The notes under the pieces: generated by a model | What the model was told of the DNA's origin: nothing | Seen by the model: the letters and a program-made list of their open reading frames with translations, nothing else | Database searches by the model: none | Shown here: piece after piece, positions 4,807-58,400 of the stretch | Numbering within the stretch: the first letter of the stretch is position 1 | Layout: each line of letters begins with the position of its first letter | DNA from: Astropecten irregularis | Lineage: Eukaryota > Echinodermata > Asteroidea > Paxillosida > Astropectinidae | Direction: 5' to 3' | NCBI GenBank assembly: GCA_963971285.1 | Contig: OZ020244.1 | Coordinates: 17,856,001-17,920,000, forward strand | Length of the DNA stretch: 64,000 nucleotides | Position numbers and translations under genes: made by a program

Positions 4807-5448
4807 TCAGTATTTGGAATTGGGAAGTTGGATAGGTTTCTCCACCTGGACATACGACTGTAGATCCTTCGTCATCTGAATGCTATCCAGCGCTTGTATA
4901 GCCCCCTTTGACAGAATAGGACCTCCATCATACGCCGTCTCCCAACCAGGTTGTGGATGATTCCCGTCCCAGCTGTACGCTTCGTCGAATGACCTGAGCA
5001 GATTGGCACCGACTGTTTCGATGCTGGGTCCATGGTTCTCCTTGTAAGACAAGCTCTCAAAATAACTTCTCTTCGACTCTGAACAGCCTGAGAAAAATCG
5101 TCGGATACCAAGTGTCACAGCAGCATATCTCTCTATCAATCGGATAAATTCCTTGCCGTAACCCATACCTTGCATTGATTTCTCCATACATAACGATTCA
5201 CCGTACGCACTCTTAGGCGTTTCGGGTTTGGTTACAGGTACCAACCGAATGTGCCCGATGACTTTATCTGGGACATTCTCTCCGTGTTGGATAAGAATCA
5301 AAGAGCAAGGTAGTCCGGTTGTCTCATCGACAGCGAGTCGATGCAATCTATCCGCTCTACAATGCGGCCAGATGCTTTTCATCAGGTTTACGCACGAATC
5401 GAGTAGATCCAGTCGAGAATTCATGGAACACAGTGAAATGGTCGCCAT
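4807..5448 (-). CDS. NAA80-like N-alpha-acetyltransferase (intact copy 1)
   Basis: A single-exon frame of 213 codons starts at 5448 (MATISLCSMNSRLDLLDSC) and stops at 4807. The fold is GNAT. Residues 11-45 (RLDLLDSCVNLMKSIWP, then RADRLHRLAV) match the N-terminal core of human NAA80 (FUS2/NAT6). Residues 65-72 match its VGHARL strand, residues 93-98 (QGMGYG) form the acetyl-CoA pyrophosphate loop, and residues 126-136 (KRSYFESLSYK) match its FYTHLGYQ segment. NAA80 acetylates the processed acidic N-terminus of actin in the cytosol; that this paralog does so is inference. The frame stays open upstream of 5448, but that part reads through the fold-back element, so I chose the ATG conserved in all copies. 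The same protein is encoded at 11603-12244 and 14804-15445. Confidence 0.82.
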   Translation of the reverse strand: MATISLCSMNSRLDLLDSCVNLMKSIWPHCRADRLHRLAVDETTGLPCSLILIQHGENVPDKVIGHIRLVPVTKPETPKSAYGESLCMEKSMQGMGYGKEFIRLIERYAAVTLGIRRFFSGCSESKRSYFESLSYKENHGPSIETVGANLLRSFDEAYSWDGNHPQPGWETAYDGGPILSKGAIQALDSIQMTKDLQSYVQVEKPIQLPNSKY

Positions 5449-5543
5449 ATTGAACTGTGACCGTGCTCCAAAGGTAGCATCTATATCATGGTCACGCTTG
5501 GTCAACACATGACCTGAGTTTTGTTTGTTTGGTTGATTATAAC

Positions 5544-6225
5544 GTTTTACAGTCACTTCGCCCATTTTCCACTTCGCCCACAACCACTTCGCCCCCAACC
5601 ACTTCGCCCACACGTCACTTCGCCCACGCGTCACTTCGCCCACGCGTCACTTCGCCCACAACCACTTCGCCCACGCGTCACTTCGCCCACGCCGCCATAC
5701 ACAACAGCCATACATGAACAGCCGCAACATAACAGCGCACGCACCGCAACTTTTTTGTAAAATCTGAACATAATTATTGTGTGATAATTGGGTATATTTT
5801 TTTCAAGGAAGGTTGGGAAGGAAAGAGTCATTATAATGTTGTTATTATTATGAGTATTAATTAATAGGTAAATATAGTAAGTAAATAATTTAGTTTGGGA
5901 GTGCTTTTATTGGAATTGGGTATATAAATATTATTATAATTATGTTATTGCCTACGAATTGCATTCTAAATCTAGAGTAATTGAAGGTGGGAATTCCTTC
6001 GTGGTCGGGGTTTGCGATAATTAGCTTATTCGTTGTTAAACTTTGTTTATACATGTATTTAAAATTGCGTTGGTAAGTGGGCGAAGTGACACGTGGGCGA
6101 AGTGACTCGTGGGCGAAGTGGTGAGTGGGCGAAGTGGTAAAGTGGGCGAAGTGGCGCGTGGGCGAAGTGGTTGTGGGCGAAGTGGTTATGGGCGAAGTGG
6201 AAAGTGGGCGAAATGACCGACATCC
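5544..6225. mobile_element. TU-like fold-back transposon FB1 (682 bp), copy 1
   Basis: The left arm is a tandem array of 15-16-bp units (cacttcgcccacaac and variants). The right arm is the reverse complement of that array (gtgggcgaagtgg units, about 6070-6215). The middle (about 5700-6060) is AT-rich and has no coding frame. The element is flanked by an exact 8-bp duplication, attataac, at 5536-5543 and 6226-6233, and the empty site is kept at 88-95. The ends read GTTTTACAGTCACTTCGCCC on the left and GGATGTCGGTCATTTCGCCC on the inverted right. Arms of minisatellite units plus 8-bp duplications match the architecture reported for sea urchin TU elements. It encodes no transposase and must be mobilised in trans. 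Confidence 0.88.
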
Positions 6226-11602: not shown

Positions 11603-12244
11603 TCAGTATTTGGAATTGGGAAGTTGGATAGGTTTCTCCACCTGGACATACGACTGTAGATCCTTCGTCATCTGAATGCTATCCAGCGCTTGTATAGCCC
11701 CCTTTGACAGAATAGGACCTCCATCATACGCCGTCTCCCAACCAGGTTGTGGATGATTCCCGTCCCAGCTGTACGCTTCGTCGAATGACCTGAGCAGATT
11801 GGCACCGACTGTTTCGATGCTGGGTCCATGGTTCTCCTTGTAAGACAAGCTCTCAAAATAACTTCTCTTCGACTCTGAACAGCCTGAGAAAAATCGTCGG
11901 ATACCAAGTGTCACAGCAGCATATCTCTCTATCAATCGGATAAATTCCTTGCCGTAACCCATACCTTGCATGGATTTCTCCATACATAACGATTCACCGT
12001 ACGCACTCTTAGGCGTTTCGGGTTTGGTTACAGGTACCAACCGAATGTGCCCGATGACTTTATCTGGGACATTCTCTCCGTGTTGGATAAGAATCAAAGA
12101 GCAAGGTAGTCCGGTTGTCTCATCGACAGCGAGTCGATGCAATCTATCCGCTCTACAATGCGGCCAGATGCTTTTCATCAGGTTTACGCACGAATCGAGT
12201 AGATCCAGTCGAGAATTCATGGAACACAGTGAAATGGTCGCCAT
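11603..12244 (-). CDS. NAA80-like N-alpha-acetyltransferase (intact copy 2)
   Basis: This 213-codon single-exon frame starts at 12244. Its protein is the same as that of the copies at 4807-5448 and 14804-15445, including the acetyl-CoA loop QGMGYG at residues 93-98 and the KRSYFESLSYK segment. It lies in copy A of the 3.3-kb tandem unit. Its identity to the others points to very recent duplication or gene conversion rather than to an independent role. Confidence 0.82.
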   Translation of the reverse strand: MATISLCSMNSRLDLLDSCVNLMKSIWPHCRADRLHRLAVDETTGLPCSLILIQHGENVPDKVIGHIRLVPVTKPETPKSAYGESLCMEKSMQGMGYGKEFIRLIERYAAVTLGIRRFFSGCSESKRSYFESLSYKENHGPSIETVGANLLRSFDEAYSWDGNHPQPGWETAYDGGPILSKGAIQALDSIQMTKDLQSYVQVEKPIQLPNSKY

Positions 12245-12337
12245 ATTGAACTGTGACCGTGCTCCAAAGGTAGCATCTATCATGGTCACGCTTGGTCAAC
12301 ACATGACCTGAGTTTTGTTTGTTTGGTTGATTATAAC

Positions 12338-14803: not shown

Positions 14804-15445
14804 TCAGTATTTGGAATTGGGAAGTTGGATAGGTTTCTCCACCTGGACATACGACTGTAGATCCTTCGTCATCTGAATGCTATCCAGCGCTTGTATAGCC
14901 CCCTTTGACAGAATAGGACCTCCATCATACGCCGTCTCCCAACCAGGTTGTGGATGATTCCCGTCCCAGCTGTACGCTTCGTCGAATGACCTGAGCAGAT
15001 TGGCACCGACTGTTTCGATGCTGGGTCCATGGTTCTCCTTGTAAGACAAGCTCTCAAAATAACTTCTCTTCGACTCTGAACAGCCTGAGAAAAATCGTCG
15101 GATACCAAGTGTCACAGCAGCATATCTCTCTATCAATCGGATAAATTCCTTGCCGTAACCCATACCTTGCATTGATTTCTCCATACATAACGATTCACCG
15201 TACGCACTCTTAGGCGTTTCGGGTTTGGTTACAGGTACCAACCGAATGTGCCCGATGACTTTATCTGGGACATTCTCTCCGTGTTGGATAAGAATCAAAG
15301 AGCAAGGTAGTCCGGTTGTCTCATCGACAGCGAGTCGATGCAATCTATCCGCTCTACAATGCGGCCAGATGCTTTTCATCAGGTTTACGCACGAATCGAG
15401 TAGATCCAGTCGAGAATTCATGGAACACAGTGAAATGGTCGCCAT
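14804..15445 (-). CDS. NAA80-like N-alpha-acetyltransferase (intact copy 3)
   Basis: A 213-codon single-exon frame, start at 15445, with the same predicted protein as the copies at 4807-5448 and 11603-12244. The 5' flank runs about 90 bp to the FB1 insertion, as in the other intact copies, so all three genes carry this transposon just upstream, where the promoter would be expected. Confidence 0.82.
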   Translation of the reverse strand: MATISLCSMNSRLDLLDSCVNLMKSIWPHCRADRLHRLAVDETTGLPCSLILIQHGENVPDKVIGHIRLVPVTKPETPKSAYGESLCMEKSMQGMGYGKEFIRLIERYAAVTLGIRRFFSGCSESKRSYFESLSYKENHGPSIETVGANLLRSFDEAYSWDGNHPQPGWETAYDGGPILSKGAIQALDSIQMTKDLQSYVQVEKPIQLPNSKY

Positions 15446-15538
15446 ATTGAACTGTGACCGTGCTCCAAAGGTAGCATCTATCATGGTCACGCTTGGTCAA
15501 CACATGACCTGAGTTTTGTTTGTTTGGTTGATTATAAC

Positions 15539-20759: not shown

Positions 20760-21299
20760 TTGGTATATTAAATTATTCATATAATGTTTATCTCTATATC
20801 CCAAGGTATAATTAAATCTATTTGTACATCTGTACATGTATCCCACAATTGTAATCGTTTTTAATGAAGTATTGATTATTAGTTAACCCATTGTAATGTA
20901 AACCACATGCATTTTGGCTGCGGCCGTCGGACGCGTTTTAATTAAATATCAACTTTGAAATGAGTTGATTTGAAAAACCATGGAAGGTAATTGACAATTT
21001 TGAACCATGCCATTGTTGGGCGGGATGAACTCGGTTGCTAAAAGAAAAAGTGAAAGCCAGTGAAACGAGCTCAACTGCCCGGCGTGCCTGGATGTCTAGG
21101 TCATCTGAGCACGCACGTCGCACCGCAATGGACCAATTTCGTTTGCGGTGCACGTGCGTAGTATGACATGTTTTGCATAAGTTGGTCTCTAGACGCAGTC
21201 ACGCGAGATATCTAAACAAAATATAGCATACAAAATTAGGTCATTATGTTGACCATAACGTGACCATGATCCTTAATTGTAATTTAGTCACTGCTCAAT
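20760..21299 (+). promoter_or_regulatory. Conserved 5' flank of the plus-strand NAA80-like gene
   Basis: This 540-bp stretch has no gene. Its parts recur upstream of the other plus-strand copy: 20760-20935 resembles 23030-23229, and 20935-21190 resembles 26785-27030, the match being split by an insertion there. Copying of upstream DNA shows that these copies arose by DNA duplication, not retrotransposition. A promoter here is inference from position. Confidence 0.45.
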
Positions 21300-21938
21300 A
21301 TGGCGACCATTTCAATGCGTTCCATGAATTCTCGACTGGATCTACTCGATTCGTGCGTAAACCTGATGAAAAGCATCTGGCCGCATTGCAGAGCGGATAG
21401 ATTGCATCGACTCGCTGTCGAGGAGACAACCGGACCACCTTGCTCTTTGATTCTTATCCAACATGGAGAGAATGTCCCAGATAAAGTCATCGGGCACTTT
21501 CGGTTGGTACCAGTAATCAAACCCGACATGCGTAAGAGTGCGTACGGTGAATCGTTATGCGTGGAGAAATCCATGCAAGGTGTGGGTTACGGCAAGGAAA
21601 TCATGCATTTCGCACACAAATATGCTGCTATGACACTTGGCATCCGACAAATTTTCATGCACTGCTTAGAGTCGAAGAGAGATTTCTTTGAGGGATTGTC
21701 TTACAAGGAGTACCATGGGCCCAGGTTCGAAACAGTCGGTGCCTTTCTCCTCAGGTCTTCCGATAAATTGTACAGCAGGGATGGGAATCATCCACAACCT
21801 GGTTGGGAGACGGCGTATGATGGAGGTCCTATTCTGTCAGATGAGGCTTTACGAGCGCTGGGTGGCATTTCTATGACGAAGGATCTACAGTCCTATGTCC
21901 AGGTAGAGAGGACCTTCCAACCGCCCAGTTCGAAATAG
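21300..21938 (+). CDS. NAA80-like N-alpha-acetyltransferase, divergent intact copy
   Basis: An open single-exon frame of 212 codons. The N-terminal core (RLDLLDSCVNLMKSIWPHC), the GHFRLVPV strand, the acetyl-CoA loop QGVGYG and the segment FFEGLSYKEYHGPRFETVG are all present. It ends SYVQVERTFQPPSSK. Against the three identical minus-strand copies it differs throughout, including the helix after the acetyl-CoA loop (IMHFAHKYAAM), yet stays open over its whole length. This is therefore the best candidate for an older gene kept under selection. Actin-directed NatH activity is the family function and is inferred here. Confidence 0.8.
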   Translation: MATISMRSMNSRLDLLDSCVNLMKSIWPHCRADRLHRLAVEETTGPPCSLILIQHGENVPDKVIGHFRLVPVIKPDMRKSAYGESLCVEKSMQGVGYGKEIMHFAHKYAAMTLGIRQIFMHCLESKRDFFEGLSYKEYHGPRFETVGAFLLRSSDKLYSRDGNHPQPGWETAYDGGPILSDEALRALGGISMTKDLQSYVQVERTFQPPSSK

Positions 21939-30212: not shown

Positions 30213-30525
30213 AATTAATATAATCATAATGGGGAATTATTAATACTGCATTGGGTTTATGAGCACGGGATTGTCAATTTCATTTTAATAAATACAAATA
30301 TTAATGCTGAATTAACAGAAATAAGACGGCAAAATAATATAGTTCCAGCACTGAATACATATGCAGAGGTTCAAGACATAAAAGTGAAAGCAATTCATAT
30401 CGTGGTTCTTTCCACTCTGAATGACAAATAAGCCTTAAAATTGAACAATGTCTGGTACACTGAATTCTTTCACTGTACGTTGGCATCAAAACCTGAATTC
30501 TCCAGACTAAAGACACTGATGCTGG
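30213..30525. other. Left flank of the LTR element
   Basis: A non-coding, AT-rich stretch with no repeated structure seen. Its last bases (gctgg) do not match the right flank of the LTR element. Confidence 0.4.
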
Positions 30526-31339
30526 TGTGGGAGAATGGAATTTTTGCCCCTTTAATGTAATACACTGTGCGTGTATGAGGGCTGTACGAAGCGTGTTCTG
30601 CCACGCAGTGTGTTAGTCCCTTTAATGAGCGTCTACTGTATCTGGGCAGATGGCTCTTTGCTCATGTAAACAAGGCGTACGTCCGCCGACGTAAAGTAGT
30701 GCCATTCGTGTTATTTCTTGAGTATGACTTTAAATTACACAATGATGGCTGTTCATTCCTATGAACACCCTGTAGGGTATATTGGGATCTGTTAAGGTAT
30801 AAATTGTATACTTAAATAATTTTTGAGTTGATTGTTAGAAATAACTTGTCCGCGGATTAATAGTAAACATTGTCCGGGTACTGGGCTGGCAGCGAGGCTT
30901 ACACGCTCTCCGTCTTTTACTACTGCTTAAATGACATCGTATGATGATTGCTGGTTGAATTTGGCTCCAAATCTTGCCTTAAAAAGTTGATAGGTGTTTG
31001 AACCACCCACTGGAGTAGCCTTGACTGAGTGGATGAAGGGAGCACGTTGGCTGGCTGGCTTGGGGGTTTTTTTCTGTTGTCATCTTTAATTACTACCGGA
31101 CCGGGTTCCCACTTCATATGTACTATCTGACTGATGGCGGCATATTGACGTGCTGTATGAGAAGTGTGTATTAAAAGCCTACCGGCCCTGGATTGTGAAA
31201 CTACCGAATAGCACCATTGTCTGTACATACTGTGACTGTGTTGTGTAATCACCTTGAGAGGTCCACACCCTCACATCCCCGAGGTGGAACTTCACCCCAC
31301 CTTCCTCGACAGGAGCTGACCCGCCCCTGTTCCATGACA
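30526..31339 (+). repeat. 5' LTR
   Basis: Begins TGTGGGAGAATGG and ends CCATGACA, with the usual TG...CA ends. A TATAAA motif lies at 30798-30803. It appears identical to 38552-39365. Confidence 0.93.
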
Positions 31340-31341
31340 AG

Positions 31342-31359
31342 TGGCGTCGTAGACAGGAT
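31342..31359 (+). promoter_or_regulatory. Primer-binding site, tRNA-Ser-like
   Basis: Two bases after the 5' LTR, TGGCGTCGTAGACAGGAT is complementary to a tRNA 3' end that would read ATCCTGTCTACGACG plus CCA. A G discriminator and this acceptor stem are typical of eukaryotic tRNA-Ser. The exact isoacceptor is inference. Confidence 0.7.
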
Positions 31360-31906
31360 TTCAACACTTCGTAGCCGGTATATAGAGTTATCATTTCTAA
31401 TTCTATATGCTAATTATGTAATGGTGTTATACTGTATGAAACGTTTAATATGGAAACCCCCAGGCCATGTTAAAGAAATTTTGTGATAGGATTACCCATG
31501 TGGTTGATTTCCTTGAATTTTGAGATTTAACTACATTTTGTGTGTTTTGGTTATTTTGTGATGTACATGTGTACATGTTATATACATAAGTGTACATGCA
31601 TGTAGGCCTACATTTAAGTACATATGGCTAGGCCTAACTAGTATTTTGGTGTCACAAGTATTTTTGTTTTTTTGCTGACCACTCAGCTGTTTGCATTATT
31701 CCTAGTGCGTATGTTTTGGCTCTATTACTAGGATTATATGATATTATGACTTGTGAATATGCTTTGTATGCATTATCGATTCCCGAGTTCCATGGGAGTG
31801 GTGTCATTTTAAGCTATTGAATTAAGTAGTTGTCTCAAGTTGAACTAGTGAATAATACGGGCCCAGCTTTACATAAGATTTGGGACTTTTCCTCATCTGT
31901 TCAAAC

Positions 31907-32926
31907 ATGGCCAAGGCTGAAGGCTTAGCGGAGGTCCTTGCCAAATCAAATGAGGCCCTTGCTGAAACACTTGCTAAGGCACTACAGGGTTTAAAGTTTT
32001 CAAGGGCACCTAAACCGAGATTGACCAAATTTTGTGGAACACCTGAGAAATCTGGTGGCCTGACTCTTGGAGAATGGGCAGAAGAACTTGATTCTTATGT
32101 TAGGCAACTCGAGTTGGCAGATGACGAACAGGTGGGGGTAGCTCTTGACCATTTGGGGGGCGTGGCTAGGGAGGAGGTGTTATGCAATCCCCCAGAAGAA
32201 CGGGATACCTTGGACAAGTTGTTGACCCTGTTGTTGCGGATGTTTGGGCCGGCCGAGACTATCGCTTCCTTGACTAGTGCATTTTATGCGCGCTCACAGA
32301 TGGAAGGGGAGACACTTGCCGAATTCAGTCGCGCTATCGTGCGCTTACATGATCGGATGGAACGGCAAGCCAAGGGTGCAGAACTGGATGCTTTACGAGT
32401 GATGCGTAATAAGATTCTCATTGAACGTATGGTTCAGGGCGCATATGACCATGTTATTCGTCGTGAGTTGCGCCGCATACAGGTTGAAAAACCTGGCTTG
32501 CCTTTTCACAAATTTAGGGAGCATGCCCTTAAACTACTATCTGAGTCAGAGCAGAAGTTGACTCGAAAGACTAGGGCTAGGGAAGCGATGGCTATTGAGA
32601 AGCCTGGTGAGATATTGTCTTGCGCTGCCGAGAGATTTGATGATAGTTGGCCACAGTCGATAGTAAAGTCGAATAAGTTGGTGGCAGATAGGTTAGAGAA
32701 CCTTGCGCAGCAGCAAGCTGCAACGAATGCGCAATTGTCGGAACTGACCTCTGTTTTGACGAAGAAGCTTGACTCCGCCATTGCAGTTGGGTCAGCTCGC
32801 TCCCCGGTAGTATGCCATTATTGTAAGAAGAGTGGTCACATCTCCCGAAATTGTTGGAAGAAACAAGAGGAAAATCGTGATGGGGCAAAACCAAATGTGT
32901 CGGGAAACCCAAGTCCTTCACCATAG
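31907..32926 (+). CDS. gag: Gag of the Ty3/Gypsy element
   Basis: The frame starts at the ATG at 31907 (MAKAEGLAEVLAKSNE), which has a good context (aaacATGG). The middle (LTLGEWAEELDSYV through FYARSQMEGETLAEFSRAIV) is a retrotransposon gag/capsid-type helical domain. A CCHC zinc knuckle (C-x2-C-x4-H-x4-C, CHYCKKSGHISRNC) is encoded at 32813-32854. The product would form the particle and bind RNA. The frame ends as pol begins in another frame, the arrangement for which this family uses programmed frameshifting. Confidence 0.9.
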   Translation: MAKAEGLAEVLAKSNEALAETLAKALQGLKFSRAPKPRLTKFCGTPEKSGGLTLGEWAEELDSYVRQLELADDEQVGVALDHLGGVAREEVLCNPPEERDTLDKLLTLLLRMFGPAETIASLTSAFYARSQMEGETLAEFSRAIVRLHDRMERQAKGAELDALRVMRNKILIERMVQGAYDHVIRRELRRIQVEKPGLPFHKFREHALKLLSESEQKLTRKTRAREAMAIEKPGEILSCAAERFDDSWPQSIVKSNKLVADRLENLAQQQAATNAQLSELTSVLTKKLDSAIAVGSARSPVVCHYCKKSGHISRNCWKKQEENRDGAKPNVSGNPSPSP

Positions 32927-35900
32927 TGGGCAAGGTGGTGGAGGTGGAAGACCTGCCCAAACCGGAACCTAACGAGTTGGCGAATGTTGAGTCTTTAGAG
33001 ACAAATCAAGTTGAGACTTTGGGGATTGATCGTTCTTATACTGAAAAGCAGTTGCGAGCGAAATTGATTGCCAGTAGTCCCACAGCTGAAATTATTATGG
33101 GAGATGTGACCACTCAGTGTATCTTGGACAGTGGTGCTGAAACATCCTTAATAACTTCATCATTTTATAGGAAGCATTTGGCCAACATAGTGGGCAGTTT
33201 GAGGCCGGTTGGGAGGTTTATCAGATTGATGGGAGCCAATGATCTAGACATACCCATTAAAGGCTATCTGGAGATTCCTATAACTATTTTTGGCTTGACA
33301 ATTTCTGCCTGTTTCCTGGTTCGGGACGACGGTTCGGATGTACCCAATGAACGTCGTGAGATATACCCTGTGCTCCTTGGGTGTAACATTTTGCGCACTC
33401 TTTCTAAGATGCGGGCCACCCCGTGTGGACCATCCAGAGATGAATGGATGGTCGCTTTACAGTGGTTCTGTTGCTTGAGTGAAGGGCAGGATGGTGAAGT
33501 GTGTAGGCCGGTGTTACCAACGCAAGAGGTTGTTGGTTGTGTTTGCATGGCTCGAGATGAGACCATTGCCCCGTTTTCGGCCTGTGTTTTATCCTGCGTT
33601 GTGAGTGGACCATTGTCAGTTTCTTCCCGTGGTGCAAGCGTTCTGATACAGCCATTTCCTTCCAGGGTGCGTGTTGATGATACACTGGAGGCAGTGGCGG
33701 AGACTTTCCACGTTGTTGAGGGTGTACAAGTTTTGGAAGACTCGTCTGTGCACGTCTTGGTGTGCAATTTGGGCGAGACTCCGGTAACTCTTCCGGAGAA
33801 GTTCAGGATTGCAACGGCTGTTGAGGCTAAACTAAGCGATGAGGTTCACCTTTGGGAGGTTGAGGATGGGTTTCGGGTGACTGTGGAGAAGGTCATAGTT
33901 GACCAAAGCCCTGATTTTTCAAGAGATCCCGAAAACAATGATGAGGATGAGACAGATGGAATGGGAGTTTCGGGTTCGCCTACTGCGAACAGAGAAACAA
34001 TTGTTTTTCCTGATGGTTCCTCATATCTACTCCCTCCTGGTATCAGTCTTAGAGGGTTTGATCATGGTGAAGCTTGTCTGATCGCTGATGTGATTAGGAA
34101 ATACGAGGGAGCCTTTTCAATGGGTCCCTTGGACATAGGGGAGTGTGCACTTATCCCACATGAGATAAAGCTCTCTAGTGACCAACCTATCCGACAGCCA
34201 TACAGACGTATCCCTCCGCAACACATGAAGGAGGTGCAGGCATTGTTACAGGATTTGCTGGAGAAAGGGGTCATCCAACGATCTGGTAGTCCCTATGCAA
34301 GCCCTACGGTTCTTGTTCGCAAGAAAGATGGGTCGATTCGGCTCTGTATAGATTATCGTAGGCTAAACGCCATTACATTGAGAGATGCATTTCCTCTCCC
34401 GCGGATCGAGGAGACTTTGGAGGCATTGGGGGGCTCTCAGTATTTCACTTCGTTGGATATGGCTCATGGATATTTTCAGTTGGTCATGCATCCAGATTCT
34501 GTGGATAAGACCGCGTTTCGAGTTCCCTGGGGGCTGTTCTCATTCACTCGTATGCCCCAAGGACTTTGTAATAGTCCCAGTACTTTTCAGAGGACCGTTG
34601 AGTTGATTTTTGGGGACCTGAACATGTCCAAGCTGATTTTGTACCTTGATGACATTCTAGTGTTTTCGGCTACATTCCAAGAACATCTTGAGAGACTTGG
34701 TGTCGTGTTTGAGAGACTCATCAAGCACGGGCTGAAACTCAAGGGCAGTAAGTGCCGTTTCTTGCAAGGTGAGGTCAAGCATCTGGGTCATGTTGTTGGA
34801 AGTAGTGGGGTTGCAGTGGACCCCGATAAGGTGGAGCGGATTGAGAACTGGCCAACTCCAAGGAGTGCCGAAGAACTCCGTTCATTCCTCGGACTCGCGT
34901 CGTATTATAGACGCTTCATAAGTGGATTTTCTAAGATAGCAGCTCCGTTGCATGTAATGGTTGCTATGACCGGGTCGAAAACAGGGAAGAGCCCGGAGTT
35001 CAAGTGGTCGCCTGTAGCCGAGGGTGCTTTTCAGGAGTTGAAAAGGGCGCTGTGCACGACTCCTGTGTTGGCATACCCTAACTTCGACAAGGATTTTGTG
35101 TTGGAGGTTGATGCCTCTCTCAAGGGTCTTGGTGCCTGTTTGCTACAGGTCGGGGATGATGGAGCTTTTCATCCTATAGCCTATGCAAGTCGTGGATTAC
35201 GCGGGGCGGAGAGGAATTACTCCGATTTCTCAAGCTTTAAGCTCGAATTGTTGGCATTGAAGTGGGCCGTTGCGGAGAAATTCCGGGATTATCTGATGGG
35301 GTCCAGGTTTGTGGTTTATACCGACAATAATCCCCTCGCTCATTTGCAGAATGCTAACTTGGGAGCGACAGAGCAGCGTTGGGTTGCCCAATTGGCACCC
35401 TTCAACATGGAAGTTAGATTCCGTCCCGGAAAGGCTAACAAATGTGCGGATGCCCTTAGCCGGCGCCCAGTTGAAGTAGTCGAGGTTGTGGATGTGGTAC
35501 ATGATTGTACCACCGTACCGTGTGAAGTTCGCTCTGCCGGTGAAGAAGGGTGCGCTAAGGTTTTTGATGTTCCCAAAGGAGAGTCTAAACACTCAGCTGT
35601 CCTACCGTCATTCACATCATGTGAGTTAGCAGCAATGCAAAAAGTTGATGAACAGTTGGGAGCAGTTTGGAGACACTGGTCGGACAAGTGGCAGTCTGTG
35701 CAAGGGGGCGACGAGTTGAATGTTCCTGGCCTGAATGGATGGTTGAGAGAACGAAACCAGATAGTAGAGAAAAATGGCGTTCTCTATCGGAAAACAAGGG
35801 ATGCTGTGCTTGGTGTTGTTTATCAGTTGCTTACGCCTAAGAAGCTTCAGAAATGGATGGTCGAGTCAGTTCACGACAACTGGGGCCACCAAGGTGTTAA

Positions 35901-37179
35901 CCGTACACTGTCACTTCTCCGAACACGGTGTTTCTGGCCGGGGATTGCCGGTTATGTGAGGGAGCATGTTCGTAACTGTTTCAGGTGCGTGGCGTCTAAA
36001 CCACCTACACCGACTGTGCGCACACCAATGCGGCATCTTTTGGCCTTTCGACCAATGGAACGAGTGGCTATTGACTTCCTCAAGCTAGACCGAGGTAAGG
36101 GAGGCTTTGAGGATGTCTTAGTTATGACCGATGCGTTCACAAAGTACGCGTTGGCCATCCCCTGTAAAGACCAGACTGCTCCTGTGGTCGCTAAGGCCTT
36201 GCGGGACCATTGGATCTCTCACTATGGCATACCTCTTCAGTTACATTCCGACCAGGGACGTAACTTTGAAGGAAGGTTGATTGGAGAGCTGTGCAAGCTG
36301 TACGGGGTTAGGAAAACCAGAACTAGTCCATATCACCCCGAAGGCAACGGCCAGACCGAGAGATTCAACAAGACCTTGTGCTCCCTGATAAAGTCCTTGG
36401 AGGTTTCAGAACGGAAGAGGTGGCCTGAACTTCTCCCCCACATGGTATACATGTATAATGCGACGCCTCACAGCGTCACTGGTGTTACGCCGTGGACCTT
36501 GCTGTTTGGACAGCAACCGACGATTCCCATAGATCATCTGGTGGGGAACTCCCATCAAGATCTAGGGGAGGAGTTTGTCCTTGAGCAGGCCAAGTTCTTG
36601 AGACGTGCCCATGACATCGTCAAGGATCGTCTTATCAAGGCGGCTGACAGGAACAAGAAGTATGTAGATGCTAAATGTAAGCCTGTACAGTCATTGATGG
36701 TTGGGTCCCGGGTTCTGGTCAAGAATTGTGCATTTAAAGGGAGGCACAAATTGAGTGATCACTTTAGTCAGGAACGGTATGTTGTCACCAAGTGCAATGA
36801 TGAGGAGGATCTGTTTGCTGTACGTCCTATCTTAGGAGGTAAGGACAGGTGGGTAAACAGGAGGCTACTGATCCTCGATCCGAGGGAGGAGTTTGAGGCC
36901 TTCAAGTGTCTACCTGAGCTTGATGGTTCGTCTGATCATTTAAGCTCTTCTGATGATTCAGACCATCAAGAACCAGAACCTCAGGATGAAAGTTCCTCGT
37001 CTGATGATGAAGTTTTGGTGTGTGACCCTCCCGAGACTACCCAATTTCCGGAACCTAATCCGCATGTCAAGTCTGACTCCTCAGGGGGAAATACTGTCCC
37101 GATTGTAGAACCTCGTCGATCTGAAAGGCTGAGATCGAAGCGTCGTCAGTCGAATAACTGGCCAAGTGCCATTACCTAG
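32926..37179 (+). CDS. pol: Pol of the Ty3/Gypsy element (protease, RT, RNase H, integrase)
   Basis: A continuous frame of about 1417 codons. Approximate residues from 32926: aspartic protease DSGAETSL at 68; reverse transcriptase with YLDD at 573; RNase H with DASLKGLG at 729 and YTDNNPLAHL at 798; integrase zinc finger, His near 983 and the C-x2-C near 1018; catalytic D 1050, D 1109 and E 1145, the last two with DD35E spacing. The C-terminal tail is acidic and serine-rich (SSDDSDHQEPEPQDESSSSD), and I see no chromodomain. There is no ATG at the gag boundary, consistent with expression by frameshift as the family is known to do. Confidence 0.94.
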   Translation: MGKVVEVEDLPKPEPNELANVESLETNQVETLGIDRSYTEKQLRAKLIASSPTAEIIMGDVTTQCILDSGAETSLITSSFYRKHLANIVGSLRPVGRFIRLMGANDLDIPIKGYLEIPITIFGLTISACFLVRDDGSDVPNERREIYPVLLGCNILRTLSKMRATPCGPSRDEWMVALQWFCCLSEGQDGEVCRPVLPTQEVVGCVCMARDETIAPFSACVLSCVVSGPLSVSSRGASVLIQPFPSRVRVDDTLEAVAETFHVVEGVQVLEDSSVHVLVCNLGETPVTLPEKFRIATAVEAKLSDEVHLWEVEDGFRVTVEKVIVDQSPDFSRDPENNDEDETDGMGVSGSPTANRETIVFPDGSSYLLPPGISLRGFDHGEACLIADVIRKYEGAFSMGPLDIGECALIPHEIKLSSDQPIRQPYRRIPPQHMKEVQALLQDLLEKGVIQRSGSPYASPTVLVRKKDGSIRLCIDYRRLNAITLRDAFPLPRIEETLEALGGSQYFTSLDMAHGYFQLVMHPDSVDKTAFRVPWGLFSFTRMPQGLCNSPSTFQRTVELIFGDLNMSKLILYLDDILVFSATFQEHLERLGVVFERLIKHGLKLKGSKCRFLQGEVKHLGHVVGSSGVAVDPDKVERIENWPTPRSAEELRSFLGLASYYRRFISGFSKIAAPLHVMVAMTGSKTGKSPEFKWSPVAEGAFQELKRALCTTPVLAYPNFDKDFVLEVDASLKGLGACLLQVGDDGAFHPIAYASRGLRGAERNYSDFSSFKLELLALKWAVAEKFRDYLMGSRFVVYTDNNPLAHLQNANLGATEQRWVAQLAPFNMEVRFRPGKANKCADALSRRPVEVVEVVDVVHDCTTVPCEVRSAGEEGCAKVFDVPKGESKHSAVLPSFTSCELAAMQKVDEQLGAVWRHWSDKWQSVQGGDELNVPGLNGWLRERNQIVEKNGVLYRKTRDAVLGVVYQLLTPKKLQKWMVESVHDNWGHQGVNRTLSLLRTRCFWPGIAGYVREHVRNCFRCVASKPPTPTVRTPMRHLLAFRPMERVAIDFLKLDRGKGGFEDVLVMTDAFTKYALAIPCKDQTAPVVAKALRDHWISHYGIPLQLHSDQGRNFEGRLIGELCKLYGVRKTRTSPYHPEGNGQTERFNKTLCSLIKSLEVSERKRWPELLPHMVYMYNATPHSVTGVTPWTLLFGQQPTIPIDHLVGNSHQDLGEEFVLEQAKFLRRAHDIVKDRLIKAADRNKKYVDAKCKPVQSLMVGSRVLVKNCAFKGRHKLSDHFSQERYVVTKCNDEEDLFAVRPILGGKDRWVNRRLLILDPREEFEAFKCLPELDGSSDHLSSSDDSDHQEPEPQDESSSSDDEVLVCDPPETTQFPEPNPHVKSDSSGGNTVPIVEPRRSERLRSKRRQSNNWPSAIT

Positions 37180-37329
37180 TGTCTTAGACCGGAATTTTGT
37201 TTAAGGACCATGGGGATCGAGTGAAACCTTCATGGGATGGTTGTAGGTTAAGTAGCAGTAGTTCTGTGGAACGAATGAATACAGTTTACATGTATCGTAA
37301 GTTGTTTCTCTGGGATGGAACTTTCATTT

Positions 37330-37357
37330 AATTTTTTTTGTGTGTTTTTCTTTTAAG
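37330..37357 (+). promoter_or_regulatory. Possible splice acceptor before the third gene
   Basis: A pyrimidine-rich tract ends in TTTTCTTTTAAG at 37357, about 190 bp upstream of the third gene's ATG. Env-position genes of this family are often expressed from a spliced mRNA. No donor was assigned. Confidence 0.4.
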
Positions 37358-37546
37358 GCCCTGCGGATTCAGAGTTCAGTGAGGAGGCTGCCGCTTCAGC
37401 GGATCTGGTGTAAACCACTCTGACCTGAACTTGGACCGAGGAAAAGTGTGGGTAGCCACATTTCAGCTACTGCTGCGTTTTAGAGACTTTTAACTGCATA
37501 CAGAGTTTCAGAGTTCTTTGATAGTTATTGTTGTTCTGCTTTCGAC

Positions 37547-38146
37547 ATGTCTAATAAGCGAAATGTATATATTTACGGACATTCGTTTCCCGCTCGGTTT
37601 TTGAGGTCGGCTCGTCGGAATCGCCAGACTGTTAGTAGGTTGCTCCGCGTTGAATCGAGCAACAACGTTCATGTCGAAGGGCACTCAGGGCTTACGTATA
37701 ACATAATTTTTAGTAGTGGGGATCGGTTCTTTAAGGAACTCAAGCGCCACTCAGTGGACTTGTTGTGCATTGATCTCGGATCGAATGACTTGTGTGGGAC
37801 AGGGGGTACCCCCGCAGTTGTTGTTCAAGATACCCTCCGTTTCCTTGCGTCATTGGAAAGTCAAGAGTTACTCCCCACACATGTTGTAATCCTTTCTGTC
37901 ATTAGGAGGTCCAAAATAACTCGACCTGGTCAAGTTTCGGTGACTACCTTTAACCATAGGGTCAAGAGGTATAATGCTCTTCTCAATGAGGAACTGCAGA
38001 AACACTATCCGACTGTGAAAATGTATTGTCAAAGGAAAACGAACCATCCGCAATATATTTCAGAAGATGGTTGTCATCTTAATGACGAGGGTCTTATCAA
38101 GTATGGCAAGGGTCTCCGAGAAGTAATTCTTGGTTGTAAGGACTAA
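37547..38146 (+). CDS. SGNH/GDSL hydrolase-like protein in the env position
   Basis: A frame of 199 codons. All SGNH blocks are visible: block I YIYGHSFPARF (nucleophile Ser13), block II VEGHSGLT (Gly48), block III IDLGSNDL (Gly78, Asn80), block V DGCHLN (Asp174, His177). The length suits a single SGNH domain. There is no signal peptide and no membrane segment, so it is not an envelope protein. SGNH enzymes are esterases, lipases or carbohydrate deacetylases; the substrate here is unknown. SGNH-type domains are known from ORF1 of some CR1/L2 LINEs and from Ngaro-type YR retrotransposons, so capture of an esterase fits a wider pattern. It lies between pol and the 3' LTR, on the same strand. 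Confidence 0.85.
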   Translation: MSNKRNVYIYGHSFPARFLRSARRNRQTVSRLLRVESSNNVHVEGHSGLTYNIIFSSGDRFFKELKRHSVDLLCIDLGSNDLCGTGGTPAVVVQDTLRFLASLESQELLPTHVVILSVIRRSKITRPGQVSVTTFNHRVKRYNALLNEELQKHYPTVKMYCQRKTNHPQYISEDGCHLNDEGLIKYGKGLREVILGCKD

Positions 38147-38551
38147 GATATGTTATGATGGATCATACCAGTTCTTCCACGGTGTTCTGTGAAGTGTCTG
38201 CTCTTCAGTGAAGAGTGAGGGGTTCTGTCTCCCTGCACTTCCGGGACTTTTGTTTTTATTGTTAAATGTTTCAAATTTGATAAAACGTTAAGCTGTTTGT
38301 TATACATGTATAAGCATTCTCCTTGGTCGAGCTAGTCACTTATAATTGTATAAGAGGTATTGATGATACTGTTATTTCTGTTTTGTAATTTGAATGTCGA
38401 CTTTTAAGTTTCTTAAATGCTGCCTTAGATTAAAAGCAATTGGGTTTAGGGGAGGACAAGATGGCTGTCCTTTGAAATCATTCATTGCATCATTGTATCA
38501 AAATTTGGATTTTAACCATTCGAGGTCGTATGGTTCGTAAAACAGGGAAGG
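38147..38551 (+). other. Non-coding tail and polypurine run of the LTR element
   Basis: No frame is supported here. The purine-rich aaaacagggaagg (38539-38551) abuts the 3' LTR, as expected for the plus-strand primer. Confidence 0.65.
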
Positions 38552-39365
38552 TGTGGGAGAATGGAATTTTTGCCCCTTTAATGTAATACACTGTGCGTGT
38601 ATGAGGGCTGTACGAAGCGTGTTCTGCCACGCAGTGTGTTAGTCCCTTTAATGAGCGTCTACTGTATCTGGGCAGATGGCTCTTTGCTCATGTAAACAAG
38701 GCGTACGTCCGCCGACGTAAAGTAGTGCCATTCGTGTTATTTCTTGAGTATGACTTTAAATTACACAATGATGGCTGTTCATTCCTATGAACACCCTGTA
38801 GGGTATATTGGGATCTGTTAAGGTATAAATTGTATACTTAAATAATTTTTGAGTTGATTGTTAGAAATAACTTGTCCGCGGATTAATAGTAAACATTGTC
38901 CGGGTACTGGGCTGGCAGCGAGGCTTACACGCTCTCCGTCTTTTACTACTGCTTAAATGACATCGTATGATGATTGCTGGTTGAATTTGGCTCCAAATCT
39001 TGCCTTAAAAAGTTGATAGGTGTTTGAACCACCCACTGGAGTAGCCTTGACTGAGTGGATGAAGGGAGCACGTTGGCTGGCTGGCTTGGGGGTTTTTTTC
39101 TGTTGTCATCTTTAATTACTACCGGACCGGGTTCCCACTTCATATGTACTATCTGACTGATGGCGGCATATTGACGTGCTGTATGAGAAGTGTGTATTAA
39201 AAGCCTACCGGCCCTGGATTGTGAAACTACCGAATAGCACCATTGTCTGTACATACTGTGACTGTGTTGTGTAATCACCTTGAGAGGTCCACACCCTCAC
39301 ATCCCCGAGGTGGAACTTCACCCCACCTTCCTCGACAGGAGCTGACCCGCCCCTGTTCCATGACA
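38552..39365 (+). repeat. 3' LTR
   Basis: An 814-bp LTR, apparently identical to 30526-31339, ending CCATGACA before ctatatcaaatg. Confidence 0.93.
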
Positions 39366-40104
39366 CTATATCAAATGATTCAAGGCAAGCTTTTGTTTAG
39401 TTACATAACAGACGTCTTGCACCAATATATGCACTGTTCATAATGGATAAGAATGGCACAAAGGAAACCAGTCCACTCCAGATAGAGATGGGTATCGCTA
39501 TGCAAAAGCTTGCCCCGAATCATATGATATTGCAACTGTCTGGGAAATTCAAACTTGGGTGTTAAAAATGCAATGAAAGAAGCCTGTGTACCAGATACTA
39601 TTCAGATTTGACTCGCAAATGGGTTATAAGGTGTAAAGTTGACATCAGATAAGCATTACATTATGGTCGATGTGGAAGAATCTGTTTGAATCTGTTTACA
39701 TTTTTTGATAGTTTATTCCAACAAAATGCAGCTTTGAAAGGCAGTACAAGCTTATGGCACTTTAGAGGCTCAATTTCGTGCAGCTGCTCTGCAGTTACAA
39801 AATCTCTATACCGGTACTCAGCAAATATCTGCAAGGGAACCAGTCTTAAACCAATGCAAACTACATGTCATTTTGGTTGGTAACCAGTGCTTGCTAAGAT
39901 TGTTAAGCTGAGAACCAGGCACCAACCAATAAATATTACGTGGCATTTTGGTTGGTAAACTGTCTGCCAAGCAAACAGCGCTCATAAAATTGGCCCCTCG
40001 CAACTTTCCACGCTGTTAGTATGTAAGAAAAGAACAATCTCCTTCCAGATTGAGGCTATGAGGCGCAGCATTCTTCCACATCTCCAACTCCTGCTCCTAA
40101 AACA
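39366..40104 (-). other. Probable 3' UTR and downstream flank of the EF-hand gene
   Basis: No coding frame is seen. On the minus strand an AATAAA signal lies at 39717-39712, about 390 bp after the EF-hand gene's stop codon. It is the nearest plausible polyadenylation signal, and the LTR element begins only 350 bp further on. Confidence 0.4.
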
Positions 40105-43100
40105 TCATCTGAGCTGGAGGAAGTAGGGTAGGAAGGCTAGGAACTCCACCTTGTCAATGACCGAAGTCAGATCCTGTTGGTTCAAATGCACAAAAACCAT
40201 CAAATTCTGTATCTTCTTCAAGGGTAGTAGTCTTGGTCCAAGACTGTAAAGCTTGATAAAGGACTCGATCATGCCATTGCGCCCTCTCGATCGTGACTTC
40301 ATTTCACCCAGCTCGCATTACAGTCTTGGGAATCTCCTACGAACCGAGGCATTGCCTTTGTATGCAAGATAGGTAGCTTATTATGAATACAGTAAAACCT
40401 CAATAACTCAAACTTGGATAACTCAAAAGTCCACTTATAAACTCAAAGTGATGCTTTGTTCCCGCCGAAAGAAAAGGCTTCTGTGTACATAAATACTTCC
40501 GTATGTCAAATTACCTGTGGCCAAAACCCTGCTTAAGTCAATTTCTTTCCCTCCGAACAACGAAACAAATCGTAGCTGAGTCTGTCCTTATCAGGTGCTG
40601 TAGGTATATAATTGAAAATGAAGTACATGCACATGTAATTTGGCCTATGTAACATGCCACTTCTATTGTGAGTCAACTTTATGTGCACAAACCCGCATGA
40701 AGACGACTGACAATTCAAGTTGCGTTAGGCAAAGTCTGGATAACTCAAAGTTTACATTCATTCCCTTGAGGTTTGAGTTATCAAGGTTTTACTGTATTCA
40801 AAATTTACTCTGGAATGCAAAATAGGATACCAAGCGAGCTGTGGGAGCATTGGAGCTGCTGAAATGCAAACAAACGCGAGATTTGGGTCCGCTAATGTTC
40901 GGTATAGCGGTACAATTTAGGGTATTTGTTCCACTGTGCCGTGACATGAAAACTTGAAAACCAATTACCTTTCCGATTGTGGTCAAAATGTCACCAGTCA
41001 GACTCGGATCCGATACGAGGTCCTTGTCAGTCACCATGGACAGCAACTCCAAGAGAGCTGCTACTGAGATGGTGCCCATCTGCTGCCGGTCCACCGATGA
41101 AAACATCATCTGTGTAGGTTGGCAAGAGAAGGAGAGTTATAAGAGAAGAAGGCCAACAATCGGAAACCAAGCACTGAAGCCTTATGATCTGTTGCACTTA
41201 CTGGGGTCTTTCTTGAGAGAGTAAGGCTTGCGGTAACACCATGCATGTATCATAAATCTCTTTTAGAAAGATGTGTGGTCCTGAAAAGGACCGATGAGAG
41301 TGGGGTCTTTCTTCACAAACCTGACAATAAGCTAGCTCTTTACAAGAGGTGACATCAACTTTCCAAGCTATCAATTTTCCAGGACAACACACGTGCACAT
41401 GCGTTACTTCTGAAGTCAGGCACAGCCATTAACATACACGTATATGTCCGTGCATGCAGGTTAGTGCAGGTACCGGTACTTATACATATTCAACAGTGTG
41501 TCATGCAACTCATGGCCTTTACAGAATTCCCAAGACGTTGTTATAGAGAGGTGTTTGCAGGTCAGTAATGGGAATGGGTTCGTGCGTTCCATCCAGTAAT
41601 AAAATCCTTGTGAACCAAGACTATTTACTTGCAAGACTGGATATTATAGACAGTGGAGCCAAACCCTGAGGTATAGTGCCTATCACAAGGTTCCACCAAA
41701 GCTCTTGTCGCAAGTTTACAATCGTACCAAAGTCTCAGAAAAAAACACAAACAGGATAACTTACAACAAACTGCATGATGTTCTGCTGGAGGTTGGTCAG
41801 ATTGACCGAATCGTATGCATCCATGGCGGAGTCTGGCAGTTTGGTCAACTTGTCCCCGAGACACGTCACGCCAACAAATTCCTCCAGGCCGAAAAACGTG
41901 CTGCTGCTGACCGCCTCATACACCTGTTACACAGGGAGGAACAACATCAGGAACTTAAAAAAGAGAAGCCCGTTTAGATTGGAGGTTCTGTTTACAATAT
42001 CCGAATGAAATTCTACAAATTAGGTATTGGGAGGGGGAGGGCGTGATGAAGAGACCAGAAACAAGAATTCACAGTTGAGAATACACACACACATTAGAAA
42101 CAGTTCACAACACTACATACCGTACTCACACCAAAGAGCCTAATGGTAATGGGCCTGTTTGTTTCACGCACAAGATCACGGATCCTCCAGATCCCATTTT
42201 AGTGTATCCTGCATGGGACGACGTGGATCTGCAGAACTGGGATCCCGTGCGTTAAACAAACAGGCCCACTGTCTCGTAATAAAGGGAAGTCAACACAATA
42301 TGAAATCCGAACTGATAAACTTTCCAGTAGTTTCCAGAGTCAAGGATGGCCTTCTCAGTGCAGTAAGGACCACAAGAAGCAGATAGAGAGAGAGTCTAAC
42401 GGGTGCTCTTGTGCCAAATCTAAGATTTTTAGAAATGGAATCTTAAACATCAAACCCAGAATCTTGGACACAACGGTGCTTGTAATGTGCTATTCAACAG
42501 ATAATGTTCAAGACAAAGCAACACAAGGCAAGATAGAGTTACTGAGCAGTGGGGCACCCAGGATTTCCCAGGGTTTGGGCAATTCTAAAAAAAACCAAGA
42601 GGATTCGATGAAAACCTCCATCACCCTCGCCCCTAAGGCAGGAACACCAAACATCCTGCCGTCTTTCAACAACTTGCAACGGCACTCTGCATCGGTGCCA
42701 CCCAAACATAAAAAAACAAACAAACAAACAACAATCACCACCAACAGCAATCAAACTTATAACTATCCACAACCCCCTTCCTGGAAAGCTCAAGAACCCC
42801 CCCCCTCCTTCCATCCAATCCCAGCCCCCCTGGGTGCACCACTGGTTCTAAAGGAACTTAAAAGAATATTAAAACTGAACACAATTAATTGATTCGTTAT
42901 GAACCCAACAGCCTAAAAAGAAACAGAGAACTTAGAGAAGGATTGTGAGATTTTTTATACTCAAATTAACAGATAATAATTACAAGAGTTATTTTATTTA
43001 CTTGGAAATTTAAAATAAAATGGAGAAAAAGACACACTCACAGATGGTTGAGTGTTGAAATTTGTTTAAAAATTCATTTATAAAGGCATGCTTTGCAAAT

Positions 43101-55400: not shown

Positions 55401-58400
55401 TTGCTCTCTTAGTACGTACGTGAAGAGTCAGCCCGACTCGATAGGACGCACGCTAAGCGCGGACACTATTTAGCAAACTTGCATAATTATGTGACGTAAA
55501 CAGCGCATAGCCAATCAAATCCCGGTATGCTAATTAGCGGACACTATTTGGCAACGGACACCTTTTGGCATGACACCGGCAACACATAATATTCAATCAG
55601 AATTGTTCATAACTTGCTTTAGCATGACATGTCACATTTCTTACTGCAAAATCTGTGCCAAGCCGGCCGCAACCCATGGTATTGAGCGCGACTTGACTGC
55701 ACCAAATACACACGATAAGTATTTACGACATGTAGGCTTGCACTTCCTGCCCGATTGCGAATTCTCGACTGTGTACTTCGCTGGTGCACTCCGTATGCTT
55801 TGACTGGTGTGACATGGATACCAATCATAGAATTTTCTGGATGCAATGCTGCTGCAAGGACCGGGCCATGCGGCCACTTGATGTGCATGCGGTGTGCATG
55901 ATGCATCGTACGGGATGTGTTTATGTCGTCTTTCATGCGATCGTTGCTCGTAAGGCTGTTCACAATATTTTTGTAATCATGTATGCGAACAGTTTGTTTC
56001 TACTTGGCAAAATGGACCAAATTCAAGGCCTGCATCACCAACTCGATCGTCCCATGGCTGATTCCCCCCAATTGCCTCGCTCCCTGGCCAATTCACCCTG
56101 ATCTATTCAGAAATGAGACAAAAAATGTGAAGATCCTTTCCACCCCTTCTTTAGGGCCTACTATTTGTGTTTATTTTGAACATCTTAAGATCTTCCCTCT
56201 TGACATGTTTTTGTTCATTTGTAGCTTCTTTTTTTTTTTTTTTTTTGCTCATTGACATATTGTTACCTTGTATTATGTTGAATATCTCTATTTTCTCCCT
56301 AAAGAGACTATCTCTGTGAAAATTGAGCCGGTCGGTCGTTGGTTCGAAGCCCATCTTCACCGACGGCACCATCACCACACCTTGTCACACACCTCGGGCT
56401 CCCTAGCATCCGACTCGTCCTCGGACAGCTCTGATGACGATGACATTGATTACGACGAGGACGATTCAATGCTGCTAACCCTTGACCCCAAAGACTGGAA
56501 GGTACCTAGCTCCTAGCCATGGCAGTTGAAACAGTTTTTCACAGCATTAGCTGGATCTGAATGAACAGCTACGGCTATGGCTTACTGCTGTTGCTAAGAT
56601 TTCTGCCTATAGATATCTCATTGCACATAGACATACATTAACTGTTGTCATTACAAATAATGTGGCATTAATAGACGTAGAAACCAAATAGAAAAGATTA
56701 GTCTGGTGGTAGCCCTTTAGTAAACTAGGCATTTTTCGTGATGCAATGTACTTGGGGAACCAGACCAGCATTTGTTTTGCATAGCTACAGGAAACACCTC
56801 TAAGATGATTGATTTGCACTAACTTTATGAGACATGAATTATACTCTTTTTTTAAAGTTGGGTGGCTCTAAAAAGAGCCGGTTAACTTGACGTTTCGGCC
56901 TTTATACTCTGGCCGTCTTCAGGAGATTACTGAAAACATTTGTATTCATCACTGAAGGCTGTTGTTGTCTTTTTGTTGCTTGATCTTGCTTTGTATTCCT
57001 TGATTTGTCTGATCAGAATCAGGATCATTACGCCGTCCTGGGTCTGTCTAAGGTTCGAATTGAGGCTACCGCCGATGACATCAAAAGAGCACGTAAGTAA
57101 CGAAGCATCAACTGTCCCTAATGATAATCCACCAAAGTCCATTCTTGGTATCGTGGGATTTTAAAGAACTTGCAAGACAGCGACTTCATCTAGGGCTTGC
57201 TGGCATAAGTTGTTGCAAGTTAAAACAATTTCTGTCAGGTTACAGACTGGTTAGAGTTAGGTTAGGTTACAGATTTGATGTTGTGAGCACCGGTGTTTTG
57301 TGTAATTGCCAATGGAAAATTGATTCAATTGAAGCTATGGTAGGGCGCCAGTACGGTATTCTGGTGGTCAATGGTTTGAATCCCGCTCCAGTCAATTTTT
57401 CTTTGTTCACTTTTCAATGACAGTTGATGATTAGTTAAGATTTGAATCTCAAACTTCTTTCTTGCAAGAGTAGCAAAATCCCATATTTCCAAGTGGGCTG
57501 TGAGTTTCATTCTCAAACTACCTATGTACATTACATGTAAGTCCTCAGATAACCCCCCAAAATTTCTAGTTTTGCTCTTTGGCTTGCTTAGTTTGGTCAA
57601 TTTAGTAATGTGAAGGCTGTGTCCAACGACAGTACGAGGAAAGTGTACAATTTTTACCAGCAAGGCACTGATGTAGGTTTAGGTCAAGAATGGGTATTAG
57701 GGAGCTTTAGATTTTCATGTTGACTGCGTCGATTGATACGTCTTTGCACTTGCATCAAGTCATCACCAACGTTGTCTGAGTTAGTCGAGGATGCCCAAAC
57801 TACGGTTCTGACGTACAGCACGACATTCTCGCATTTGTGGTCGACATGAACGAGGTCCACGTTCTCACCAATCTAAAGCTCCCTATTAACCCTAACTAAC
57901 CCTCTATACTTAGCACACAAGACAAGAGCTGCTTATCACACATTATTATAGTGTCCTTTTTCGGGACCTTTTTCGGGACTGAATCATAAACTTACCACAG
58001 GAAAAACCAAAGATTATAGCGCTACGCGCAAGATGGGGAACTGTCCACTGAAACGTGTAATCACCATGGACGCCATTCTGGTGTGAGGGCGGGCGCTCCA
58101 CGTATGGAGTTTCCATAGCATGATATGAGCGATGTGTGCAGAACTTGCAAAAGTAGGTCCAGAAAACCACAAAAAATCGCCGTTTTCATATTCAGCTGTT
58201 TGACACCAATGTCAAATATGTCTATTTACAATAAACAATAGGTTTTAATCGAATTCGGGCCAAAATTTTGCCTAACACCCCTTTTCTTTGATAAATCTCC
58301 CAGCCCACATATGTCCCGTGTATAAACTACTCGCTATTTGCACACCAGAATGGCGGATCGTGCACACCAGAATGGCGGATCGAGGCCTCCATACCAATTA

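Follow-up and report, generated by a model that had tools for sequence, protein, structure and literature searches.

We analyzed a 64,000-nucleotide stretch of the Astropecten irregularis genome (hereafter the window; GenBank assembly GCA_963971285.1, contig OZ020244.1, positions 17,856,001 to 17,920,000 of the forward strand), which contains a full-length long terminal repeat (LTR) retrotransposon of the Ty3/Gypsy (Metaviridae) type. Between pol and the 3' LTR lies a third open reading frame (ORF3) that encodes an SGNH/GDSL hydrolase. A first-pass annotation, made from the sequence alone, had proposed such a hydrolase as the third gene of a Gypsy element, and Pfam matches for both ORF3 and pol, together with the gene order, support that proposal. 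The element is composed of the following features, numbered from the first nucleotide of the window:

30526-39365, plus strand: full-length LTR retrotransposon, with open frames for gag, pol and ORF3
30526-31339, plus strand: 5' LTR, 814 bp, TG...CA, identical to 38552-39365 across 814 bp
31342-31359, plus strand: putative primer-binding site by position and sequence, TGG..., 2 bp past the 5' LTR
31907-32926, plus strand: gag, 339 aa, ATG at 31907, with a PNMA-like capsid region and one CCHC knuckle
32881-37179, plus strand: pol, a 1432-aa open frame with protease, reverse transcriptase (RT), RNase H and integrase (H2C2 and rve, DDE), by Pfam and motifs
32902-32908, plus strand: GGGAAAC, a -1 frameshift heptamer whose register fits gag
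37335-37357, plus strand: the stronger of two candidate 3' splice sites for an ORF3 mRNA, with a 20-nt pyrimidine-rich tract (85% pyrimidine) followed by AAG
ending at 37483, plus strand: second, weaker candidate 3' splice site (70% pyrimidine)
37547-38146, plus strand: ORF3, SGNH/GDSL hydrolase of 199 aa by Pfam match and predicted fold, with Ser13, Gly48, Asn80, Asp174 and His177
38539-38551, plus strand: polypurine tract by sequence, AAAACAGGGAAGG, adjoining the 3' LTR
38552-39365, plus strand: 3' LTR, 814 bp, identical to the 5' LTR

The pol frame matched RVT_1 (5.3e-32), RT_RNaseH_2 (5.5e-30), RT_RNaseH (6.4e-26), Integrase_H2C2 (5.3e-15) and rve (1.1e-11) in Pfam, and the protease (DSGAETS), RT (YLDD) and integrase (DDE) motifs were located at residues 83, 588, 1065, 1122 and 1155. 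The order protease-RT-RNase H-integrase was thus recovered, with the protease and the DDE triad recognized by motif, and two TG...CA LTRs, a primer-binding site and a polypurine tract were present. The PNMA-like region and the CCHC knuckle of gag both fell slightly under the Pfam cutoffs. No target-site duplication of 4-6 bp was found, as GCTGG and CTATA flank the LTRs (30516-30525 and 39366-39375). Its absence is odd beside identical LTRs, and could be explained by recombination between copies or by an assembly join; the assignment to Ty3/Gypsy was made on pol and gene order. There was no dUTPase family among the pol Pfam matches at E ≤ 1, a list that may lack weak matches with E above about 0.1. 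Apart from the LTR pair, the window contained no second copy of any part of the element, and no further SGNH gene of the ORF3 family.

The predicted SGNH fold spans the whole of ORF3, and its fold matches are acylhydrolases, sialate O-acetylesterases and platelet-activating factor acetylhydrolase. The profile search against SGNH/GDSL families that had been suggested as a check gave a Pfam match, and the residues named beforehand were all present, with Ser13 in block I, Gly48 in block II, Asn80 in block III, and Asp174 and His177 as the Asp-x-x-His of block V. No signal peptide, membrane segment or hydrophobic stretch was found in the window protein, and ORF3 does not have the signal peptide, fusion peptide and transmembrane (TM) anchor of an errantivirus-like env; the earlier view that the frame is not envelope-like was thus confirmed. 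Viral hemagglutinin-esterases cut sialate O-acetyl groups, and ORF3 could in principle be an envelope substitute that acts on surface glycans in a similar way. We give this only a slight chance, since the window protein has no signal peptide or membrane segment. Three N-terminal stretches in relatives lie in extensions ahead of the conserved block, with putative start sites, and three further stretches (P0016, P0027 and P0030) lie inside the fold.

We collected 67 relatives of ORF3, 10 by single-sequence search and 66 by profile search at E ≤ 1e-3, with 9 common to both. None were found in viral contigs by either search, or in genome contigs by the profile search. The alignment comprised 46 rows, namely the window protein and 45 near full-length relatives; 22 of the 67 were partial and were excluded. 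Identity to the window protein was 34-51% for 43 of the 45, with the remaining two at 81% and 22%. Gly48 and His177 were retained in every one of the 46 rows, and Ser13, Asn80 and Asp174 in all but one row each (45 of 46). The protein is also strongly basic, with an isoelectric point (pI) of 9.65 in the window and above 8 in 43 of 46 rows. Such a charge would suit a non-catalytic scaffold for RNA or particles that uses the fold without the enzyme, and Oskar has been named as a non-catalytic SGNH protein (PMC3905857). However, catalytic residues that are needless for a scaffold are near-invariant here, and we regard that role as highly improbable.

Linkage of the esterase gene to pol was assessed by comparing the exact size in bp of the longest contig of each protein between the SGNH list and the best 120 of 2015 pol relatives found. 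Among the matches listed, 5 contig sizes were common to both (8049, 3029036, 764437, 2377792 and 4677478 bp), and chance agreement of such exact sizes is very unlikely. The 8,049-bp size is common to P0002 (SGNH) and P0091 (pol), and a contig of this length hardly has room for more than one such element. With the window itself and P0108 (no stated contig) excluded, 58 pol relatives of the window clade had a stated contig; 29 of them were on contigs of 8 kb or more, of which 5 had a match, and 29 on shorter ones, of which 0 had. A pol profile also found 11 loci in prokaryotic metagenome-assembled genomes (best-segment identity 23-41%) and none in viral contigs. These loci (L001-L011) are of Gypsy type, occur in bins such as Trichormus, Kapabacteria and Giesbergeria, and are most likely eukaryotic contamination; an SGNH profile at E ≤ 10 matched 0 of the 11, all of which are on contigs of 3.7-5.3 kb.

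A comparison of RT and SGNH divergence had likewise been proposed. For the window and the 5 linked pairs, the identity matrices of SGNH (195 common columns) and pol (744 columns) were correlated (r = 0.82), with 14 of 720 relabellings giving an equal or higher value. As unrooted splits, both trees set the window and P0002/P0091 apart from the remaining 4 pairs. The rooted order of the two trees is not comparable because many unlinked pols lie in between, and support is weak for the finer SGNH branches, with 24 of 60 inner branches open. These six pairs support co-divergence at a coarse level only. The nearest SGNH relative (P0001, 82%) and the nearest pol relative (P0068, 81%, in the best 120 of 2015) are equally diverged, which suggests similar constraint, a reading that is neither a measured dN/dS nor proof of a common element origin. 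It is a tentative view, a little short of even odds, that a single broad lineage of animal Gypsy elements has long had the free-standing SGNH esterase as a core gene, passed down vertically since before the main pol splits, co-diverging with pol, and standing as a soluble intracellular enzyme at the place of env.

The gag and pol frames overlap at the GGGAAAC heptamer, and a -1 frameshift on the full-length RNA would yield pol. The stretch from the pol stop to ORF3 has 6 ATGs, all 5' of both candidate acceptors (37357 and 37483). The 189 nt from 37357 to the ORF3 ATG hold none, and the ORF3 start is the first ATG past either acceptor; ATG-free stretches of 188 nt made up 45 of 1277 sampled in the window. 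The ATG-free stretch past the best acceptor fits a candidate spliced ORF3 message, and spliced messages are typical for the ORF3s of LTR retrotransposons (PMC5408684). A good splice donor was not found, the sole pattern match in the leader, at 31377, being weak. Translation of ORF3 may occur from a spliced subgenomic mRNA with the candidate acceptor ending at 37357. The leader itself (31340-31906, 567 nt from the 5' LTR to the gag ATG) contains 19 ATGs, and gag may rely on splicing or internal entry too.

Computation shows the element with its ORF, the fold prediction, the conservation of the catalytic residues and the contig sizes in common. Taken together with the considerations that follow, they lead us to a best explanation to which, as a whole, we assign a probability of roughly 0.65: ORF3 encodes a basic, cytosolic SGNH esterase, probably an active one, and is a true third gene of its Ty3/Gypsy lineage, where it has been selected along with pol. 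Its identity as an SGNH third gene kept by selection is very probable. Catalysis by ORF3 is likely, judging from the conserved residues, and a role on intracellular membranes or lipids is possible by analogy, on the doubtful side. In such a role, the positively charged esterase would bind close to the gag particle during assembly, either to acidic membranes inside the cell or to acylated proteins, and cut an acyl or acetyl ester there. Cleavage could help particle assembly, trafficking or vesicle-mediated exit, as has been proposed for the ZfL2-1 ORF1p esterase. That esterase, the closest analogue to have been studied, cleaves esters, and its surface charge drives binding to acidic phospholipids and liposomes (PMC3905857), and the basic charge of the ORF3 family would fit this membrane binding. 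The first-pass annotation had envisaged a role on lipid or glycan during particle entry, exit or trafficking, which is plausible; intracellular lipids or acylated proteins are favored over surface glycans because there is no signal peptide. The main rival is a protein or thioester deacylase that would strip fatty acyl or acetyl groups off gag or host proteins and not lipids. We consider this unlikely, with the histone deacetylation assay negative for the LINE esterase, itself another protein (PMC3905857).

Several observations weigh against a selected, active third gene made in this way. Four of the 5 linked pairs are on contigs of 0.76-4.7 Mb, where gene and pol could come from different copies, and 2 of the 5 linked pols are partial (P0128 and P0136). 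The 8-kb contig line was set only once the matches were known. Among the matches listed, 24 of the 29 pol relatives whose contig reaches 8 kb had no SGNH match, including several at 51-53% identity; the gene may be absent from these, may have been missed by the word-based search, or the cluster's longest contig may be another. The expectation that other members of the lineage keep the gene was thus upheld by five exact contig-size matches but not by these 24. When the matrices were first compared, on pairwise columns, the correlation was weaker (r = 0.61; 19 of 720 relabellings). Three full-length rows have lost a catalytic residue (Ser in P0050, Asn in P0035 and Asp in P0037), and all three belong to a single clade of 18 SGNH relatives that lie close together. 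None of the 22 partial relatives has all three motif blocks together, which indicates either that decayed copies are common or that fragments were sampled. A hairpin was predicted approximately 6 nt past the GGGAAAC heptamer, but a stimulatory role for it was rejected, its folding being no better than that of shuffles (z = -0.53; 57 of 200 shuffles folded equally well or better).

The patchy presence of the gene on large pol contigs and the share of partial relatives would both fit a passenger, that is, a host esterase gene acquired once and without a role in the life cycle, and LTR elements are able to transduce host genes. This is nevertheless the least probable of the alternatives and has a very slim chance, given the 66 relatives from the profile search, the catalytic residues kept by 45-46 of the 46 near full-length rows, and the 8,049-bp contig size common to SGNH and pol. 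The clade of 18 that includes the three residue losses (P0010, P0028, P0031, P0032, P0035-P0037, P0041, P0048-P0050, P0053-P0057, P0059 and P0064) has mostly short branches, as if the family had recently expanded in a single genome or a few.

Esterases of this kind in LTR elements are not new. Rodriguez, Kenefick and Arkhipova described GDSL/SGNH ORF3s in the Vesta elements of bdelloid rotifers in 2017, noted that the bdelloid captures were independent of the CR1/L2/RTEX LINE esterases, and reported GDSL genes in Penelope-like elements too (PMC5408684); LTR-element esterase ORF3s are also mentioned in two reviews (PMC5718144, PMC6431247). The earlier suggestion that unrelated retroelements captured esterases repeatedly is therefore an idea already in print. 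Like the window element, Vesta is an LTR element with gag-pol and an SGNH/GDSL ORF3 at the env position, with intact catalytic residues and no TM segment or coiled coil (PMC5408684). In contrast, Vesta pol belongs to a rotifer-specific lineage and has a dUTPase between protease and RT, a mark that it shares with Juno and TelKA (PMC5408684), whereas the window pol gave no dUTPase match. Bdelloid LTRs are 159-551 bp (PMC5408684), compared to 814 bp here. These distinctions were drawn from the published descriptions. In a midpoint-rooted tree of the pol matches listed, sea cucumber and sea urchin relatives fell inside the clade of the window pol, and fish and frog relatives outside it. No LTR-element esterase ORF3 outside rotifers was found in the open-access articles that we read, Repbase and the subscription literature being beyond that scope. 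The esterase ORF3 is known from rotifer LTR elements and is here found in another element family.

Other retroelement esterases differ more. The ZfL2-1 ORF1p esterase of the CR1/L2/RTEX LINEs is also an SGNH esterase in the service of a retroelement, with a basic surface and a proposed membrane role, but it lies inside a multidomain ORF1p with a coiled coil (PMC3905857), whereas the window ORF3 is free-standing beside a true gag. Ngaro-like YR retrotransposons of Xenopus have an extra SGNH ORF after the YR (PMC9210276), with a tyrosine recombinase and split direct repeats in place of DDE integrase and LTRs. Terminon/Athena and Neptune, which are Penelope-like, also carry a GDSL esterase (PMC5408684, PMC6431247) but have a Penelope-type RT and no LTR/integrase architecture. 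The texim SGNH genes are tied to a transposon, the fish Helitrons (PMC4021074), as intron-bearing genes next to a DNA transposon rather than as an ORF of a retroelement.

The third-gene esterase is thus not limited to rotifer elements, as a Gypsy lineage with no dUTPase match has one with intact catalytic residues, and ORF3 relatives were found on many contigs. Viewed beside the esterases of LINE, Penelope and Ngaro elements, the Gypsy case makes it look as if envelope-less retroelements have needed ester or lipid chemistry time and again. With its identical LTRs and open frames, the window copy is also a handy object for tests of enzyme function.

Elsewhere in the window, Rfam matches to the histone 3' UTR stem-loop were present at 41252-41297 and 56838-56884 (both minus strand), with no evident adjoining histone ORF by eye. 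A local gene family of GNAT acetyltransferases was represented by four long single-frame copies at 4807-5646, 11603-12295 and 14804-15496 (minus strand) and 21288-21938 (plus strand), with PF00583 checked by Pfam in two of the four. The copies at 11603 and 14804 differ in their DNA but not in the protein that they encode; counting from the end, the copy at 4807 agrees with that protein at 226 of 231 positions.
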